This document shows positions 18,712 through 25,772 of a stretch of DNA of 46,126 nt, piece by piece. The notes under the pieces are model-generated. The model did no database searches, was not told the DNA's origin, and saw only the letters and a list, made by a program, of their open reading frames with translations. The DNA is from Bryobacteraceae bacterium (GTDB taxonomy: Bacteria; Acidobacteriota; Terriglobia; Bryobacterales; Bryobacteraceae): positions 1-46,126 of the forward strand of contig JASIAM010000254.1 in NCBI GenBank assembly GCA_030041985.1. The letters are read 5' to 3'. Positions within the stretch are counted from its first letter, which is position 1; each line of letters starts with the position of its first letter. A program made the position numbers and the translations under genes.

Positions 18712-19078
18712 GGACCCTCCATTATAAGTAACCCTCGTCCGAGAAATTCGTGGGTGAGTTGGCTGGGTTAGCGAGCTAGCTCGGTGAGGAACCGGGACAG
18801 CTTCCGGAAGGTGGAATCAAACGAGCGCTGTCGTTCCTCCGAAGCTATGCCAGAGAGCAGTGGACCGCCCTCTTCATCGATGGCGGTCGCCTGGCGAAGG
18901 CCAGCGGCCGATGCAGGCTTGAGGGCAGCCGCTTCAAGAAGAGGTGGCGCAGCCGGTTGTTGTTCATTACGGCCAGTACAATTCGAGGCGATTGAAGGCG
19001 GAAAAATCAGCCAAATCGGACGGTTCCGTTGTAAAATCTCTCTTCCGGAAGTCTGCTCAAAAGATGCGGAGACTCAAA
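18712..19078. other. Intergenic region with a possible gene remnant
   Basis: The 367 bases between thrC and the PEP-CTERM gene contain a minus-strand frame of about 100 codons ending near 18775 (…STFRKLSRFLTELAR). It has protein-like composition but no ATG, GTG or TTG start. It could be the tail of a decayed gene. A 13-bp motif at 18745-18757 recurs inverted at 20314-20326. No RNA gene or clear terminator is seen. GGAG at 19068-19071 is the ribosome-binding site of the next gene. Confidence 0.4.
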
Positions 19079-20179
19079 ATGGAAATTAAAAAAATCTACA
19101 AGTTGTCCGGAATCGTTGTCTGGGCGGGGTTGTGCCTGGTTCCCATGGCGGCGCATGCCGACATCATGGTGACAGTATCTTGCGGGTCTATTTCTGCTTC
19201 TGGTTCAGGATTCGGAGGTTCAGGATTGGGAGGCGGTCCGTCTGGAACCGTCACCTGTCTAGGCCTGTCGAGTTTGAGCAGCGCTACCTTGAACTACTCC
19301 ACCTCCGTCTCGGGCGCCATGCCCGGTACGACTGGCGGTCCGTTTCCTGTAAGTATTCCGTTCGCGGCTGATATGTTCTTCACTCCCACAGGACCAAGCG
19401 GTGTAACCTGGCCGAACACCGGGCCTGCTGTGTCCCCGAGCTTACTCACTGTGGTGGTTCCGGGTTCTAACACCGATACAGCGATGGCGGGAGTGACAGA
19501 CGCCAATTTCAGTTCGGGATTCAATGTCGGGGTCTCTACGGATATCTTCGACGGTTCGGCCACTAGTATGACGGGGGCCGTGTCTGTGACATACGACTCT
19601 CTCCTGGCATCTTTGGGTCTGGCGCCGGCGGTGACCGCATCTTGCGGGTCCGTTACTGGTTCAGGACTTTTCGGCGGTCCGTCTGGAACCGTTACCTGCC
19701 CCGCGTACACCCCGCCCTCCTACACCACCAGTAGCTTGATGTTGAAGAGCGTTACCGTGAACGATTCCACCTCCGTTACGGGGGCCATGCCCGGTACGAC
19801 TGGCGGTCAGTTTCCTGCAAGTATTCCGTTCGCGGCTGATATGTTCTTCACTGCCACAGGATCAAACGGAGTAACCTGGTCGGGCAACTCGGTTATCCCG
19901 AACCAAAGCGTTGTGGGCGTTTCGGGTTCTGACACTCAAACAGCGACGGCGGGAGTGACGGTCGCCAATTTCAGTTCGGGATTCAATGTCGGGATCTTTA
20001 CGGATGTCTTTGACGGTTCGGCCAATAGTATGACGGGCGCCGTGTCGGTGACGTACGACTTTGGCCCAGCGGCTGCAGCAGTTCCGGAGCCGTCCAGTAT
20101 GCCTTTGCTGCTTAGCGGATTATTTGTCCTCTTCACAGCAGAAGCGATTCGAAAACGGCACCGGCGGGCGGTTGCGTAG
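19079..20179 (+). CDS. PEP-CTERM sorting-domain protein with internal duplication
   Basis: The 366-residue exported protein starts with a Sec signal peptide ending at AAHA. It ends with a PEP-CTERM signal: VPEPSS, a hydrophobic helix (MPLLLSGLFVLFTAEAI) and a basic tail (RKRHRR). Such proteins are processed by an exosortase at the inner membrane and usually relate to exopolysaccharide or cell-surface material. The mature part is two tandem copies of about 155 residues rich in Gly, Ser and Thr, each starting with SCGS and ending SMTGAVSVTYD. The copies remain very similar at DNA level (offset 468 bp, later 462 bp). Start 19079 is chosen for GGAG seven bases upstream; ATG 19064 is an alternative. 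No exosortase gene is in view. Confidence 0.85.
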   Translation: MEIKKIYKLSGIVVWAGLCLVPMAAHADIMVTVSCGSISASGSGFGGSGLGGGPSGTVTCLGLSSLSSATLNYSTSVSGAMPGTTGGPFPVSIPFAADMFFTPTGPSGVTWPNTGPAVSPSLLTVVVPGSNTDTAMAGVTDANFSSGFNVGVSTDIFDGSATSMTGAVSVTYDSLLASLGLAPAVTASCGSVTGSGLFGGPSGTVTCPAYTPPSYTTSSLMLKSVTVNDSTSVTGAMPGTTGGQFPASIPFAADMFFTATGSNGVTWSGNSVIPNQSVVGVSGSDTQTATAGVTVANFSSGFNVGIFTDVFDGSANSMTGAVSVTYDFGPAAAAVPEPSSMPLLLSGLFVLFTAEAIRKRHRRAVA

Positions 20180-22103: not shown

Positions 22104-22553
22104 TTACACCATTTCGGCTGTCTTTTGCCGTGGCCGCAATTGCCGATCGCGTATTGCCAGCAGTGCTGCGCGCAAAGGTTCGGCAGCGTCCATGGAATGA
22201 GCGAGGCTCGCGAGGGTGTTCACCGACTGCGAGCGCCAGGATTCCGCCTCGGCGGCGCAGCCCTGGCGGAGCGACAGTTCGGCGGCGGTTTCGTGCACAC
22301 GCCACGCGGCCAAAGGCGTGTCCGCACCCGAAAGCGCTGCCAGCGCCTGTCCCGAATGCGCCGCTGCTTCGTCGAGATTATTTTCGGCAAGCGCAATCCG
22401 CGCGGGCAGGTTTCTGCCAAGAGCAAGAAACGTCCGCTTCCCCGGCAAAGCTGCCAGAGCGCACAGGCGAGCGGCCGCGGAGCGCGCATTCGCCACATCG
22501 CCGCGATCGAACGCCAACTCGCCCAGCGAGCGATAAAGCGACGCCGGAACCAT
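22104..22553 (-). pseudogene. TPR-like helical fragment, probably the C-terminal remnant of a larger protein
   Basis: The 149 residues read as four helix-turn-helix repeats of TPR type (LYRSLGELAFDRGDVANARSAA, ARIALAENNLDEAAAHSGQAL, VHETAAELSLRQGCAAEAESW). Nothing precedes the first repeat: there is no signal peptide, no N-terminal domain and no ribosome-binding site before the ATG. Just upstream lies a 15-bp tandem repeat tract (22561-22590). The gene converges on lexA, ending seven bases after it. The simplest reading is a truncated gene whose 5' part has been lost. A short free-standing TPR protein is the alternative. Confidence 0.5.
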
Positions 22554-22760: not shown

Positions 22761-24020
22761 TCAGCGGGCTAAGAACATAGCGCGTTGGAATGAGATTGCG
22801 TCGGCGGGAGTGGGAAATGCGAGGCTGAGAAACGCCAGGCCCATCTCATTCGTGGTTTGCTCACCGTAAGTGACACGGACTGGGGGATGGGCTGGATTAT
22901 GCGGGTTACCTTCCGAGTTATCGTAAGTATACTCCAGTTCTACTCTTGTTCCTTTGGGTAGCTTCACCGGAGTGGCGTAGGTGTAAGCGCCCTGCCAGTT
23001 GAAGTCCCAGTCCTTAATCCAGATGAGCGGCTTAACCGAGCCATCAGGCAGGTAAGCATTAACCTTCATATCCTTACAAAGATAGTGAGCATGAGGAGTG
23101 ATACCGATTACTTGGGCATCGGCGGCCAGCGTACGGGAAACTTTAACCACGTAATGAGAATCGCCGGGAGGGATGTCAATATCCCGCGTGGCTACGAGGA
23201 CAAGGGCGCGCCCGTGTGTGGGCGGATCGCTATAAAAAAGTCCGAGTGATGACTGATCCTCGGCTGGAGCGCCCGAAGGATGGTAGTGAATCTGCACGAC
23301 CAGATCGGTGCCTTTTTCGAGAGTGGTGGCAAAACCGGCGACCGGTTTGCGCGGTGTGATTCCGGGCGCCCAACCGCCGATCAGGCCGCCGGCGAAACCC
23401 GGGCTGCCGAAACAGGTATAGCCTCCATCCGGTGAGCCGGCCGCCAGTTTGCGTCCCTGTCCACGCGGGTCGGCGAAGACCAGCGCGTGATGCACTGTGC
23501 GCCGGCTACCGGCGCGGAACTCCATCGCGCCGATGTAAGTGTCCTTATCCAGATTGAGCGGGATGACGAAACAGCGATAGACATCCGGCCCTCCGGCAGG
23601 AACAGAAAATTTGGTCGGAATCGTAACGATCCTGTCTGGCTGGCCAAGCTGCCAGCCATCGGTGAAATGTGGCGGTGTGGGTTTGGGGCCGGCGCCTTCG
23701 GGCGCGCCGCTCGAGGCCCACTGCTGAATCAGGGCGATCTGCTCATCGGTCAAGCGGCGGACATCGCGGAAATCGCCATAGCCAGGCTCGGCCTTCCAGG
23801 GTGGCATCACGCGGGCTTTGGTCACGCTGGCAATGAGGGCGGCGCGCTTGCCAGTGTCCTGGTAACTCAACAGCGGAAAGGGAGCCACTTCACCGGGGCG
23901 ATGGCAGCCGGCGCAGTTCTGATAGAGGATGGGTGCAATGTCTTTGTTATAAGTAGGCGCGGCCGGAGCTGTAAGCGCGAACATGGCGGCCAGAACAGCG
24001 AGCAGGGCGAGTGGCTTCAT
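22761..24020 (-). CDS. Exported cytochrome c / copper type II monooxygenase-like fusion protein
   Basis: The 419-residue protein has a signal peptide (to about residue 22), a cytochrome c domain with haem motif C36-A-G-C39-H40, and a peptidylglycine-monooxygenase-like copper fold. All six copper ligands of that fold can be matched: H177, H178 and H245 (VQIHY) for the first site, and H310-x-H312 plus M393 (TNEMGLAF) for the second. The haem may deliver electrons to copper in place of ascorbate; this is inference. ATG 24020 overlaps the stop of the redoxin gene (ATGA) and has GAGGAAAC before it. The substrate is unknown. Similar fusions are common in Acidobacteria and Planctomycetes. Confidence 0.85.
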   Translation of the reverse strand: MKPLALLAVLAAMFALTAPAAPTYNKDIAPILYQNCAGCHRPGEVAPFPLLSYQDTGKRAALIASVTKARVMPPWKAEPGYGDFRDVRRLTDEQIALIQQWASSGAPEGAGPKPTPPHFTDGWQLGQPDRIVTIPTKFSVPAGGPDVYRCFVIPLNLDKDTYIGAMEFRAGSRRTVHHALVFADPRGQGRKLAAGSPDGGYTCFGSPGFAGGLIGGWAPGITPRKPVAGFATTLEKGTDLVVQIHYHPSGAPAEDQSSLGLFYSDPPTHGRALVLVATRDIDIPPGDSHYVVKVSRTLAADAQVIGITPHAHYLCKDMKVNAYLPDGSVKPLIWIKDWDFNWQGAYTYATPVKLPKGTRVELEYTYDNSEGNPHNPAHPPVRVTYGEQTTNEMGLAFLSLAFPTPADAISFQRAMFLAR

Positions 24021-24586
24021 TGTTTCCTCGTGATGGCGCAACCGAGCGCTTTCGTCCGGGGATGGGGAACGGGCTTTCCCGCGAGGACGGCATCGAGTGC
24101 GTCGCGTAAATCGAACTGAGTGACTTGCACGCGTTCCTTGCCGTAGTCTTCGAGGCGGTTATCGATCCGGCCCAGGTAGAGCAGCTCACCACCCGGAGCG
24201 AGCACGGCTGCTTCCGGTGTAGCGGTAGCGCCGGTGTACGCGGCCAGCGATTCCGCGGGGTCCAACAAGTAAGGGAAGGTGTAACCGAACTCTTTGACAT
24301 GCTCCTGCACCTGACTGAGCGGCACAGTGGCATCGCCCTGGACAGCATAAAAGACCACCCCGCGGGGCGCATATGCGCTTACCATGCGATTCATCTCAGG
24401 CACATAGCGGTTACTCAGGGGACAATCCGTACTGACAAACAGTAAAACAAGGGCGTGTTTTCCGGCCCATTCCGCGCGTGTATGGACGCGGCCGGCGGTA
24501 TCGGAGAAAGAAAAGCGAGGCAATGTGCCCGCGCATGCTGCCATGGAGGACAGGAGCAGCAGAGTGTTGACTCTTGCTCGAAGCAT
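24017..24586 (-). CDS. Exported redoxin (thioredoxin-fold) protein
   Basis: The 189-residue protein begins with a hydrophobic leader ending MAAC, which could be a weak lipobox (C18) or a Sec signal. A thioredoxin-like AhpC/TSA fold follows: FSFSDTAGRVHTRAEWAGKHALVLLFVSTDCPLSNRYVPEMNRM, with C55 in the active-site position but no CxxC. A second conserved Cys lies near the C-terminus (LGCAITRK, C183) and may pair with it. The gene lies between prxQ and the cytochrome c/copper monooxygenase and overlaps the latter by four bases. A role in copper loading or thiol redox of that enzyme is plausible from context. The start may be the GTG one codon earlier. Confidence 0.82.
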   Translation of the reverse strand: MLRARVNTLLLLSSMAACAGTLPRFSFSDTAGRVHTRAEWAGKHALVLLFVSTDCPLSNRYVPEMNRMVSAYAPRGVVFYAVQGDATVPLSQVQEHVKEFGYTFPYLLDPAESLAAYTGATATPEAAVLAPGGELLYLGRIDNRLEDYGKERVQVTQFDLRDALDAVLAGKPVPHPRTKALGCAITRKQ

Positions 24587-24590
24587 CACC

Positions 24591-25043
24591 TTATTTTATC
24601 GTTGGTGAGGCAGCCGCCAGCACCTCGGATGGCGGAGGCATACCGCGGCGCGCGAAACGAATCACGCCATCCGGGCCGATCAGGTATACTGTGCGCTTCA
24701 CGATGATACCGCTCGCTTGATAGAGCTTGGCTACCTGACGGCCCTCATCCACCAGCAGTGGAAATGGGAACTGGAACTTGCCGCGGAAGCGCGTATGGGA
24801 TGCAGCGCTCTGCGGATTGACGCCAAACACTTCGACACCGCGCTCGCGGGCCGCCTCCCAGGAATCGCGGAACTGGCAGAGCTGCCGTGTACAGCCGGGG
24901 GTGTCGTCACCGGGATAAAAAACCAGCACCACATTTTTGCCCTTCAGCGCGGAGAGAGCGACGGCCCGGCCGGATTCATCGGGAAGGGAGAAATCGGGGG
25001 CAGGTGTGCCGGCGGGGAGCGGGTCAGAGGAAAACCAGGACAT
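24591..25043 (-). CDS. Thiol peroxidase of the BCP/PrxQ type
   Basis: The 150-residue peroxiredoxin reduces hydroperoxides. The core is VVLVFYPGDDTPGCTRQLCQFRD, with peroxidatic C51 and a second cysteine five residues on (C56), the atypical two-cysteine PrxQ arrangement. FYPGDDTPGC is the family signature. The longer open frame upstream is discarded because it runs antisense to the YkgJ-type gene. No clear Shine-Dalgarno sequence precedes ATG 25043. It is the first gene of the three-gene redox unit. There is no leader peptide, so it is probably cytoplasmic, unlike its two partners. Confidence 0.9.
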   Translation of the reverse strand: MSWFSSDPLPAGTPAPDFSLPDESGRAVALSALKGKNVVLVFYPGDDTPGCTRQLCQFRDSWEAARERGVEVFGVNPQSAASHTRFRGKFQFPFPLLVDEGRQVAKLYQASGIIVKRTVYLIGPDGVIRFARRGMPPPSEVLAAASPTIK

Positions 25044-25172
25044 CGGAGAAGCTTTATTTTGGCACAAAGCGCACAGGAGCCGCGGCGTCCTCAACGGGAT
25101 CAAAAAACGCCACGCCTCGCGTTCGTTGTGGGCGTTAGGGGGCGCGCGCGCAGGTATACTGCGGGAGAGGCG

Positions 25173-25772
25173 ATGAGAGGCACGGATCAGGACCTGGTGC
25201 AGATCGTAGATGCTGCGATGGTTGAGGCGGCGCGCAGAAGCGGCTCCTGGCTGGCGTGCCGGCCGGGCTGCTACCAGTGTTGCCTCGGCCCTTTCCCGAT
25301 TACACAGCTTGATCGAATCCGATTGCGGGAAGGCCTGGCGGCACTGGAGGCCCGCGATCGGCCAAGAGCCGGCCGTGTGCGGCAGCGGGCGATGGCTTGG
25401 GTAGAGCGGGCCAGGCGCATGTATCCGCGCGATCCTCTCGGCAGCGTGCTCGCCATCGAAGACGCCTTCGCAGAGGAACCGTGCCCGGCGCTCGATCCGC
25501 ATACAGGCACCTGCGATCTGTACGCGGCCCGCCCGATCACCTGCCGCACATTTGGTCCGGCCGTGCGGCTCGGCGCAGAGTCAGTGGCGGTTTGCGAGTT
25601 GTGTTATCAAGGGGCGGTGGACAGCCAGATTGCGGCTTGTGAAGTGGCAGTAGATCCGGAAGGTCTGGAAGCGGAGTTGTTGCAGGAACTGGAAGCGCTG
25701 GGAATGTCGGGTGATACCACCGTGGCATTCGCGCTGGCGGAGTTGAACGATGAAGGCTTACATTCTGAGTGA
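25173..25772 (+). CDS. YkgJ-type cysteine-cluster protein
   Basis: The 199-residue protein carries the CxCC-type zinc/iron-binding signature near the N-terminus (C-R-P-G-C-Y-Q-C-C, about residues 29-37). Further metal-ligand cysteines follow: PCPALDPHTGTCDLYAARPITCRTFG and CELC. The family is widespread and its function is unproven. The ATG has a strong GGGAGAGG ribosome-binding site and a TATACT -10 box at 25155-25160, so the longer upstream frame antisense to prxQ is rejected. It overlaps the next gene by 23 bases, suggesting coupled translation. Confidence 0.87.
   Translation: MRGTDQDLVQIVDAAMVEAARRSGSWLACRPGCYQCCLGPFPITQLDRIRLREGLAALEARDRPRAGRVRQRAMAWVERARRMYPRDPLGSVLAIEDAFAEEPCPALDPHTGTCDLYAARPITCRTFGPAVRLGAESVAVCELCYQGAVDSQIAACEVAVDPEGLEAELLQELEALGMSGDTTVAFALAELNDEGLHSE

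Follow-up and report, generated by a model that had tools for sequence, protein, structure and literature searches.

Organization of the locus

The DNA examined here (the window, 46,126 nucleotides of contig JASIAM010000254.1 from a Bryobacteraceae bacterium of soil) carries on its minus strand a tandem of three genes that encode PrxQ (24591-25043), a redoxin (24017-24589), and a cytochrome c/copper protein (22761-24020). The copper protein, the main subject of this study, is 419 residues long and by inspection begins with a Sec-type signal at residues 1 to ~20. The redoxin is an exported thioredoxin-fold protein whose gene starts at either a GTG (24589) or an ATG (24586), 1 bp or 4 bp, respectively, from the stop codon of PrxQ. 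A sequence-only reading of the window had placed all three proteins in one redox unit. Its coordinates and residue numbers (C36, C39, H40, H177, H178, H245, H310, H312, and M393) are all exact, and the four-base overlap it described between the redoxin and copper genes is confirmed: the copper-protein ATG (24020-24018) and the redoxin TGA (24019-24017) share the ATGA at 24017-24020 of the minus strand.

Predicted fold of the copper protein

The sequence-only reading had attributed to the copper protein the two-copper fold of peptidylglycine α-hydroxylating monooxygenase (PHM) and called for a structure prediction, which we carried out with AlphaFold2. PHM and its relative dopamine β-hydroxylase (DBH) are the textbook animal enzymes of peptide-hormone finishing and noradrenaline synthesis, respectively, and the supply of electrons to their two distant coppers has long been debated. 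The model, built on an alignment of 34 relatives, had a predicted local distance difference test score (pLDDT) of 90.5 and a predicted template modelling score of 0.82. The 31 best PDB matches returned by Foldseek were all PHM or DBH, with PHM first. VIA-align gave a Z-score of 22.6 to rat PHM (263 aligned residues, root-mean-square deviation 2.7) and 21.9 to DBH, and the best other fold scored 8.1, in agreement with the fold that had been claimed. Residues 126-416 make up the PHM two-domain β-sandwich, at 14–19% identity to PHM and DBH. The relationship is also detectable by sequence: a profile of the copper-protein family retrieves PHM with an E-value of 2e-9, aligning the HH pair, the histidine of HY, and HxH; EM falls in a second, weak segment of the hit. 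The model and the profile both indicate that this is a real PHM/DBH-fold protein, and we infer the geometry of its copper ligands from the same fold and profile alignments to PHM.

Pfam returned only two matches for the window copper protein, Cytochrome_CBB3 (E-value 7e-4; 20.3 against 27 bits) and Cu2_monoox_C (E-value 0.042; 13.8 against 23 bits). Both are below the gathering score, which is a criterion of detection and not of biochemistry, and annotation by domain search alone would thus overlook the protein. Among the 34 relatives, Cu2_monoox_C was matched in seven and Cu2_monooxygen in six at an E-value of 0.01 or lower, and an NCBIfam scan gave no relevant match for the window protein. 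Bacterial PHM-type members already carry database domain names. As PHM-type enzymes and bacterial members were known before, the window protein represents a variant and not a new kind.

Conservation of the haem and copper ligands

Conservation was assessed in two sets of sequences. The first consists of 118 distinct copper proteins, including those from 80 named loci (the best 80 of 506 confirmed stretches, picked by copper protein). The search patterns for these loci included CH[RH][PA]G...AP, so that CxxCH is partly forced in the named loci; the copper ligands lie outside the patterns. The second set, 39 homologues that a similarity search brought up in near relatives, is independent of the CxxCH pattern.

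The c-type haem attachment motif that the sequence-only reading had recognized in the same chain, C36-A-G-C39-H40 (23901-23915, minus strand, as are all positions in this section), is kept in 118/118 proteins and in 39/39 of the set free of motif bias. It is followed by M72-P-P-W75 (23796-23807), in which M72, P73, and W75 are present in 118/118 and P74 in 117/118 proteins. M72 is the likely distal axial haem ligand, and all 118 proteins therefore contain the two features of a c-type cytochrome, CxxCH and a candidate distal ligand. The copper ligands, on whose conservation in orthologues the earlier proposal had been staked, are just as constant. H177 and H178 (23487-23492) of the CuH site align with the HH of PHM, and H245 (23286-23288), the third ligand of this site, with its LQVHY. 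At the CuM site, H310-A-H312 (23085-23093) align with HTH, and E392-M393 (22842-22847) with SSDEM in the weak second segment. All of the histidines are conserved in 118/118 proteins, and the EM pair in 116/116 of those with letters at these positions. The PHM counterparts are H107/H108 (H177/H178), H172 (H245), H242/H244 (H310/H312), and M314 (M393). In the 39 near-relative homologues C36, C39, H40, M72, H177, H178, H245, H310, H312, E392, and M393 are all invariant.

The site that would bind the substrate behaves differently. The peptide carboxylate in PHM is bound by R240, N316, and Y318; the corresponding columns in the window protein hold T308, L395, and F397 and are variable in the family, so that the residues specific for a peptidylglycine are absent. 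The variability of these columns suggests a substrate that is probably no peptidylglycine and that probably changes from one paralogue to another. It would also fit a protein that is no oxygenase at all and that reuses the PHM fold to bind haem and copper in electron transfer, in storage, or in the sensing of copper or oxygen. Many binding roles would likewise be compatible with the roughly ten loci in the window genome and with the fusion of relatives to TPR and TIG domains. Both copper sites (three histidines in one; two histidines and a methionine, with an adjacent glutamate, in the other) are nevertheless invariant, and neither storage nor sensing is likely to call for two of them. We consider a non-oxygenase function unlikely, and count a copper sensor, a copper store, or a peroxide-using enzyme as alternatives that weigh against a monooxygenase.

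The redoxin is a conserved partner of the copper protein

Gene linkage was scored for 83 copper proteins from the 80 named loci, dropping copper-protein matches below 150 bits and redoxin matches below 55 bits. The rates describe near relatives of the window copper protein and not the whole family, and the query alignment included redoxin-linked members. A redoxin is adjacent or fused to 52 of the 83 copper proteins, in at least five phyla. These comprise 24 N-terminal fusions, one C-terminal fusion, 23 redoxin genes directly upstream, and four downstream; 27 copper proteins have no redoxin, and the upstream DNA of the other four is cut off. The 52 include the duplicates L036/L075 and L047/L115, which were left out of the tree described below, and the first copper open reading frame (ORF) of L080, scored as linked through a redoxin fused to its neighbor. 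In near relatives 30 copper proteins were scored, of which two are fused to a redoxin, eight have one upstream and three downstream, 14 have none, and three are cut off. Of individual loci, that of Lacipirellula limnantheis I41 (L126) has a redoxin upstream and that of Bryobacterales F-183 (L081) has none; L047 and L105 are natural fusions.

We placed the 118 copper proteins, from which duplicates and proteins with fewer than 330 matched residues had been dropped, on a tree built by a quick method (29 of 115 inner branches are weak). The window protein falls in a 16-member clade with a support of 100, in which the redoxin is directly upstream in 12 members and not in three, one being cut off. 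Across the tree there are at least 12 changes between fused and separate and at least 25 between linked and unlinked, which indicates that fusion and loss of the redoxin both recur. The redoxin is a true conserved partner of the copper protein. Of the linkage that the sequence-only reading had anticipated in related genomes, the redoxin part therefore stands, as a frequent association and not a constant one.

Several other arrangements were encountered. L118 (5734-8205) encodes cytochrome, copper domain, TPR repeats, and redoxin in one chain, and L044 (820-2781) is a second copper protein with a TPR-repeat extension. L114 (2684-8695) contains two long copper-domain ORFs, a redoxin, and a third copper protein in a run. 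The redoxin orthologue of one close relative (G053; L136:4189-5498) is split across two frames next to an intact copper protein, through either a frameshift or an assembly error. Inspection by eye of 87 co-directional ORFs from 48 redoxin-linked loci, many of them mechanical calls that may be no genes and with no family search, showed no third conserved neighbor that would name a substrate.

PrxQ lies outside the unit

The gene upstream of the redoxin (24591-25043, minus strand; 150 residues) encodes an ordinary PrxQ, that is, a bacterioferritin comigratory protein. It matches AhpC-TSA in Pfam with an E-value of 1.6e-36 and contains C51-T-R-Q-L-C56, the CP-x4-CR arrangement of this group. In contrast to the redoxin, it did not hold up as a member of the proposed unit. 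None of the 80 named loci has a PrxQ in its flanks, which were covered over up to 6 kb; the sole separate thioredoxin-like match there was a WCPPC TlpA-like protein in L057. Among six close orthologue regions PrxQ is nearby only in that of a same-genus genome (G004; 79% identical, 1.7 kb upstream). Three regions (G053, G038, and G028) have the redoxin and lack PrxQ, and two (G097 and the short contig of G050) have neither. In the same-genus genome a 526-residue ORF, sulfotransferase-like by inspection, lies between PrxQ and the redoxin (L135:3452-5032). PrxQ has by inspection no signal sequence, which would put it on the opposite side of the membrane from the exported redoxin and copper protein. 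It is a co-located housekeeping gene outside the redoxin/copper unit.

The redoxin is a thioredoxin-like protein with a conserved cysteine pair

The redoxin matches the AhpC-TSA and Redoxin families of Pfam. Its model (pLDDT 92.2) is closest to the uncharacterized thioredoxin-like structures 2ywi, 3u5r, and 2cvb/2ywo (Z-score ~20), followed by thiol oxidoreductases of the ResA type (~15) and then PrxQ structures (~14). The redoxin profile finds the same closest solved relatives with an E-value of 3e-32. The two relatives shown in the alignment share with the redoxin the C-terminal cysteine of a G-C-x-I motif and, unlike it, have an additional cysteine three residues ahead. None of 2ywi, 2cvb/2ywo, and 3u5r is known to be linked to a copper enzyme.

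Two cysteines of the redoxin are conserved. C56 (GTG numbering; 24422-24424, minus strand) occupies the nucleophile position in D-C-P-L-S-N and is a cysteine in 59 of the 60 sequences with letters there. C184 (24038-24040, minus strand), in G-C-A-I near the C-terminus, is a cysteine in 60 of 61. The one exception at both positions is L079, in which both cysteines have been lost together. With this co-variation, the two look like one working redox pair. L079 (5152-7197) is a natural redoxin-cytochrome-copper fusion with SEG and GAA at the two sites, and thus a natural double loss.

By its motifs the redoxin belongs to none of three known classes. The peroxiredoxin motif PxxxT/SxxC is absent, and the family reads F-x-x-x-D-C-P-x-S-N instead. 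The CxxxC of Sco copper chaperones, which forms a copper site together with a histidine, is also missing: a single cysteine is followed by P-x-S-N. Finally, the WCxxC of the ResA, CcmG, and TlpA thiol reductases is replaced by C-P-L-S, with the second cysteine far away, near the C-terminus.

These observations bear on what the redoxin might do for the copper protein. It could shield the enzyme from peroxide formed in uncoupled turnover, with or without the help of PrxQ. Copper oxygenases can leak H2O2, the Pfam matches of the redoxin are to AhpC-TSA/Redoxin, and PrxQ adjoins the redoxin in the window genome. This peroxidase role fits poorly with the missing peroxiredoxin motif and with nearest structures that are thioredoxin-like (Z-score ~20) and not PrxQ (~14); PrxQ itself is unlinked elsewhere and looks cytoplasmic. 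We regard it as decidedly unlikely.

The sequence-only reading had suggested that the redoxin loads copper or maintains the thiols of its partner. Copper loading finds no footing in a protein that lacks the Sco-type CxxxC, and the copper ligands of the partner are histidines and methionine. With respect to thiols, the window copper protein has three cysteines beyond CxxCH (Cys150, Cys203, and Cys315), two of which, Cys150 and Cys203, align with the PHM cysteines of the C81-C126 disulfide. Cys203 is present in 39 of the 118 copper proteins and is accompanied by Cys150 in all 39, as would be expected if the redoxin formed or repaired a disulfide in the copper domain. However, the Cys150-Cys203 pair occurs in 17/63 redoxin-linked and 18/47 unlinked copper proteins, there is no trend in independent pairs, and 11/63 linked copper proteins have no cysteine beyond those of CxxCH. 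As a general role, the care of copper-domain thiols or disulfides is largely refuted and very improbable. Because of these 11 proteins, the haem cysteines are the only thiols common to all linked partners, which points to a role of the redoxin in haem attachment or reduction.

A model for electron supply to the copper sites

The explanation that we favor, and consider reasonably probable, makes the copper protein a PHM/DBH-fold monooxygenase of the periplasm that has two coppers and relies on its own c-type haem in place of ascorbate; the redoxin would maintain or feed the haem center. The haem, probably with M72 as distal ligand, would draw electrons from the periplasmic pool of respiratory cytochromes and deliver them to CuH, from where they would move to CuM. 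O2 activated at CuM would then serve to hydroxylate a small substrate that is exported or extracellular, and ascorbate would not be needed; replacement of ascorbate by the haem as electron donor is plausible. The redoxin would be a dedicated thiol-redox partner working through the one pair C56/C184. Its most likely place of action is the haem center, where it may hold the two cysteines of CxxCH in reduced form so that haem can be attached, or may supply the haem with reducing equivalents. Maintenance of the apocytochrome or haem center is our tentative assignment for the redoxin, held with rather less than even confidence. What is left beyond maintenance, electron feed, and peroxide defence falls to other roles. 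The analysis directly shows the fold, the conserved ligands, the linkage and fusion of the redoxin, its paired cysteines, and the lack of linkage to PrxQ, whereas the presence of copper and haem, catalysis, the direction in which electrons flow, the task of the redoxin, and the nature of the substrate are inferred.

The dithiol could also be the electron source itself, with a membrane thiol-transfer protein reducing C56/C184 and electrons passing to the haem and CuH, so that the enzyme would be driven by thiols and not by respiration. The redoxin is N-terminal in 24 of the 25 fusions in the named loci, so that only a short linker separates its C-terminal cysteine, kept in every one except L079, from the haem motif that follows, and both cysteines are conserved as a pair. 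The order is not fixed, though, with the redoxin downstream in four cases and C-terminally fused in one; L079 has neither cysteine, and many copper proteins have no redoxin. We judge direct thiol drive to be an unlikely source of the electrons.

A number of observations weigh against the proposal of a haem-fed monooxygenase with a dedicated redoxin. In the window genome a ccm operon includes CcmE, CcmF, CcmH, and CcmC-type genes (CcmH and CcmC by inspection), so a dedicated apocytochrome helper is not strictly needed. ResB of maturation system II was not found in this genome, in which the genes of system I are present, and no WCxxC protein was seen within 13 kb around CcmE/CcmF. The redoxin is lacking beside 27 of the 83 copper proteins and beside 0/7 of the other full-length paralogues in the window genome with upstream DNA is it present, the eighth being cut by a contig end. 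The enzyme class as such thus does not require it. Conversely, a search of 60 genomes spread over the phylum gave 12 strong redoxin matches (130 bits or more), of which seven have no adjacent or fused copper protein and five have one. A copper protein anywhere in the genome was found in 7/12 genomes with a strong redoxin and 5/48 others, using a profile that was built from copper-protein-linked redoxins and is hence biased towards linked ones. Lastly, L079 keeps its haem and copper motifs even though its fused redoxin has lost both cysteines.

Relation to known systems and distribution

The copper protein resembles PHM (PDB 1phm, 5wja) and DBH (4zel) in fold, in the six copper ligands, in the EM motif, in sequence-detectable homology, and in the position of one disulfide. 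Unlike them, it is bacterial, is preceded in the same chain by a c-type haem domain, and has a redoxin partner; unlike PHM, its family does not conserve the substrate-binding positions. The redoxin belongs to the same fold class as ResA and CcmG, the apocytochrome c thiol reductases, is exported like them, and would act on CxxCH thiols; in contrast to these proteins it has C-P-x-S instead of CxxC and a distant second cysteine. Whereas the upstream gene is a typical PrxQ, the redoxin/copper pair does not have PrxQ as a conserved neighbor. We found no description of the cytochrome/copper-protein family in the open-access literature searched, and a search with the names of the Pfam copper-monooxygenase families gave, by title, nothing on a bacterial family. 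One paper that mentions both Acidobacteria and peptidylglycine (PMC6107167) concerns human NHLRC2 and is unrelated. A specialist would find two things new, namely that the haem and copper sites are invariant together and that fusion to the redoxin recurs in several phyla. With a haem in a PHM-type chain, the entry of electrons could be followed by spectroscopic and kinetic measurements.

Judged by record titles, PHM-type proteins occur in five or more phyla of bacteria, the named loci being from Acidobacteriota, Planctomycetota, Verrucomicrobiota, Armatimonadota, Poribacteria, and some further groups. One 'Acidimicrobiia' contig is probably misbinned, as its fused protein is the same as that of a genome in the window's own bacterial family. 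At least one copper-protein match is present in 70 of 101 genomes (the window genome and 100 relatives), and 12 of the 60 genomes drawn across the phylum have one at an E-value of 1e-40 or lower. The window genome itself encodes nine full-length copies, including the one described here, and three partial matches. The family has many members in phyla that dominate soil and freshwater, is barely detected by Pfam, and is a candidate for unrecognized O2-dependent extracytoplasmic chemistry. A broader proposal can be made, although it is a rather doubtful one: the family may form a multi-phylum, ascorbate-free class of the PHM fold in which the c-type haem and the dithiol redoxin constitute a private chain for electron delivery or maturation, periplasmic thiols or respiratory electrons would drive the hydroxylation of exported metabolites or peptides, and expansions within lineages to ten or more paralogues would serve different substrates.

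One acidobacterial genome (G108) has six copper-protein homologues in tandem (C5:261242-274801; seven matches, one gene being in two pieces). Its 17 copper-protein matches occur with no redoxin match at an E-value of 1e-20 or lower.

Other features of the window

On the 3' side of the copper gene, 22104-22553 (minus strand) encodes a C-terminal remnant that is TPR-like by inspection and has no Pfam match, possibly from a decayed gene. A divergent ORF at 24717-25772 (plus strand) contains a CxxCxxCC zinc/iron-chelating domain (PF03692); by inspection its true start is probably at ~25185, which would give it a promoter region shared with PrxQ. Further away, 18944-20179 (plus strand) by inspection encodes a repeat protein that is exported and has a tail resembling PEP-CTERM.

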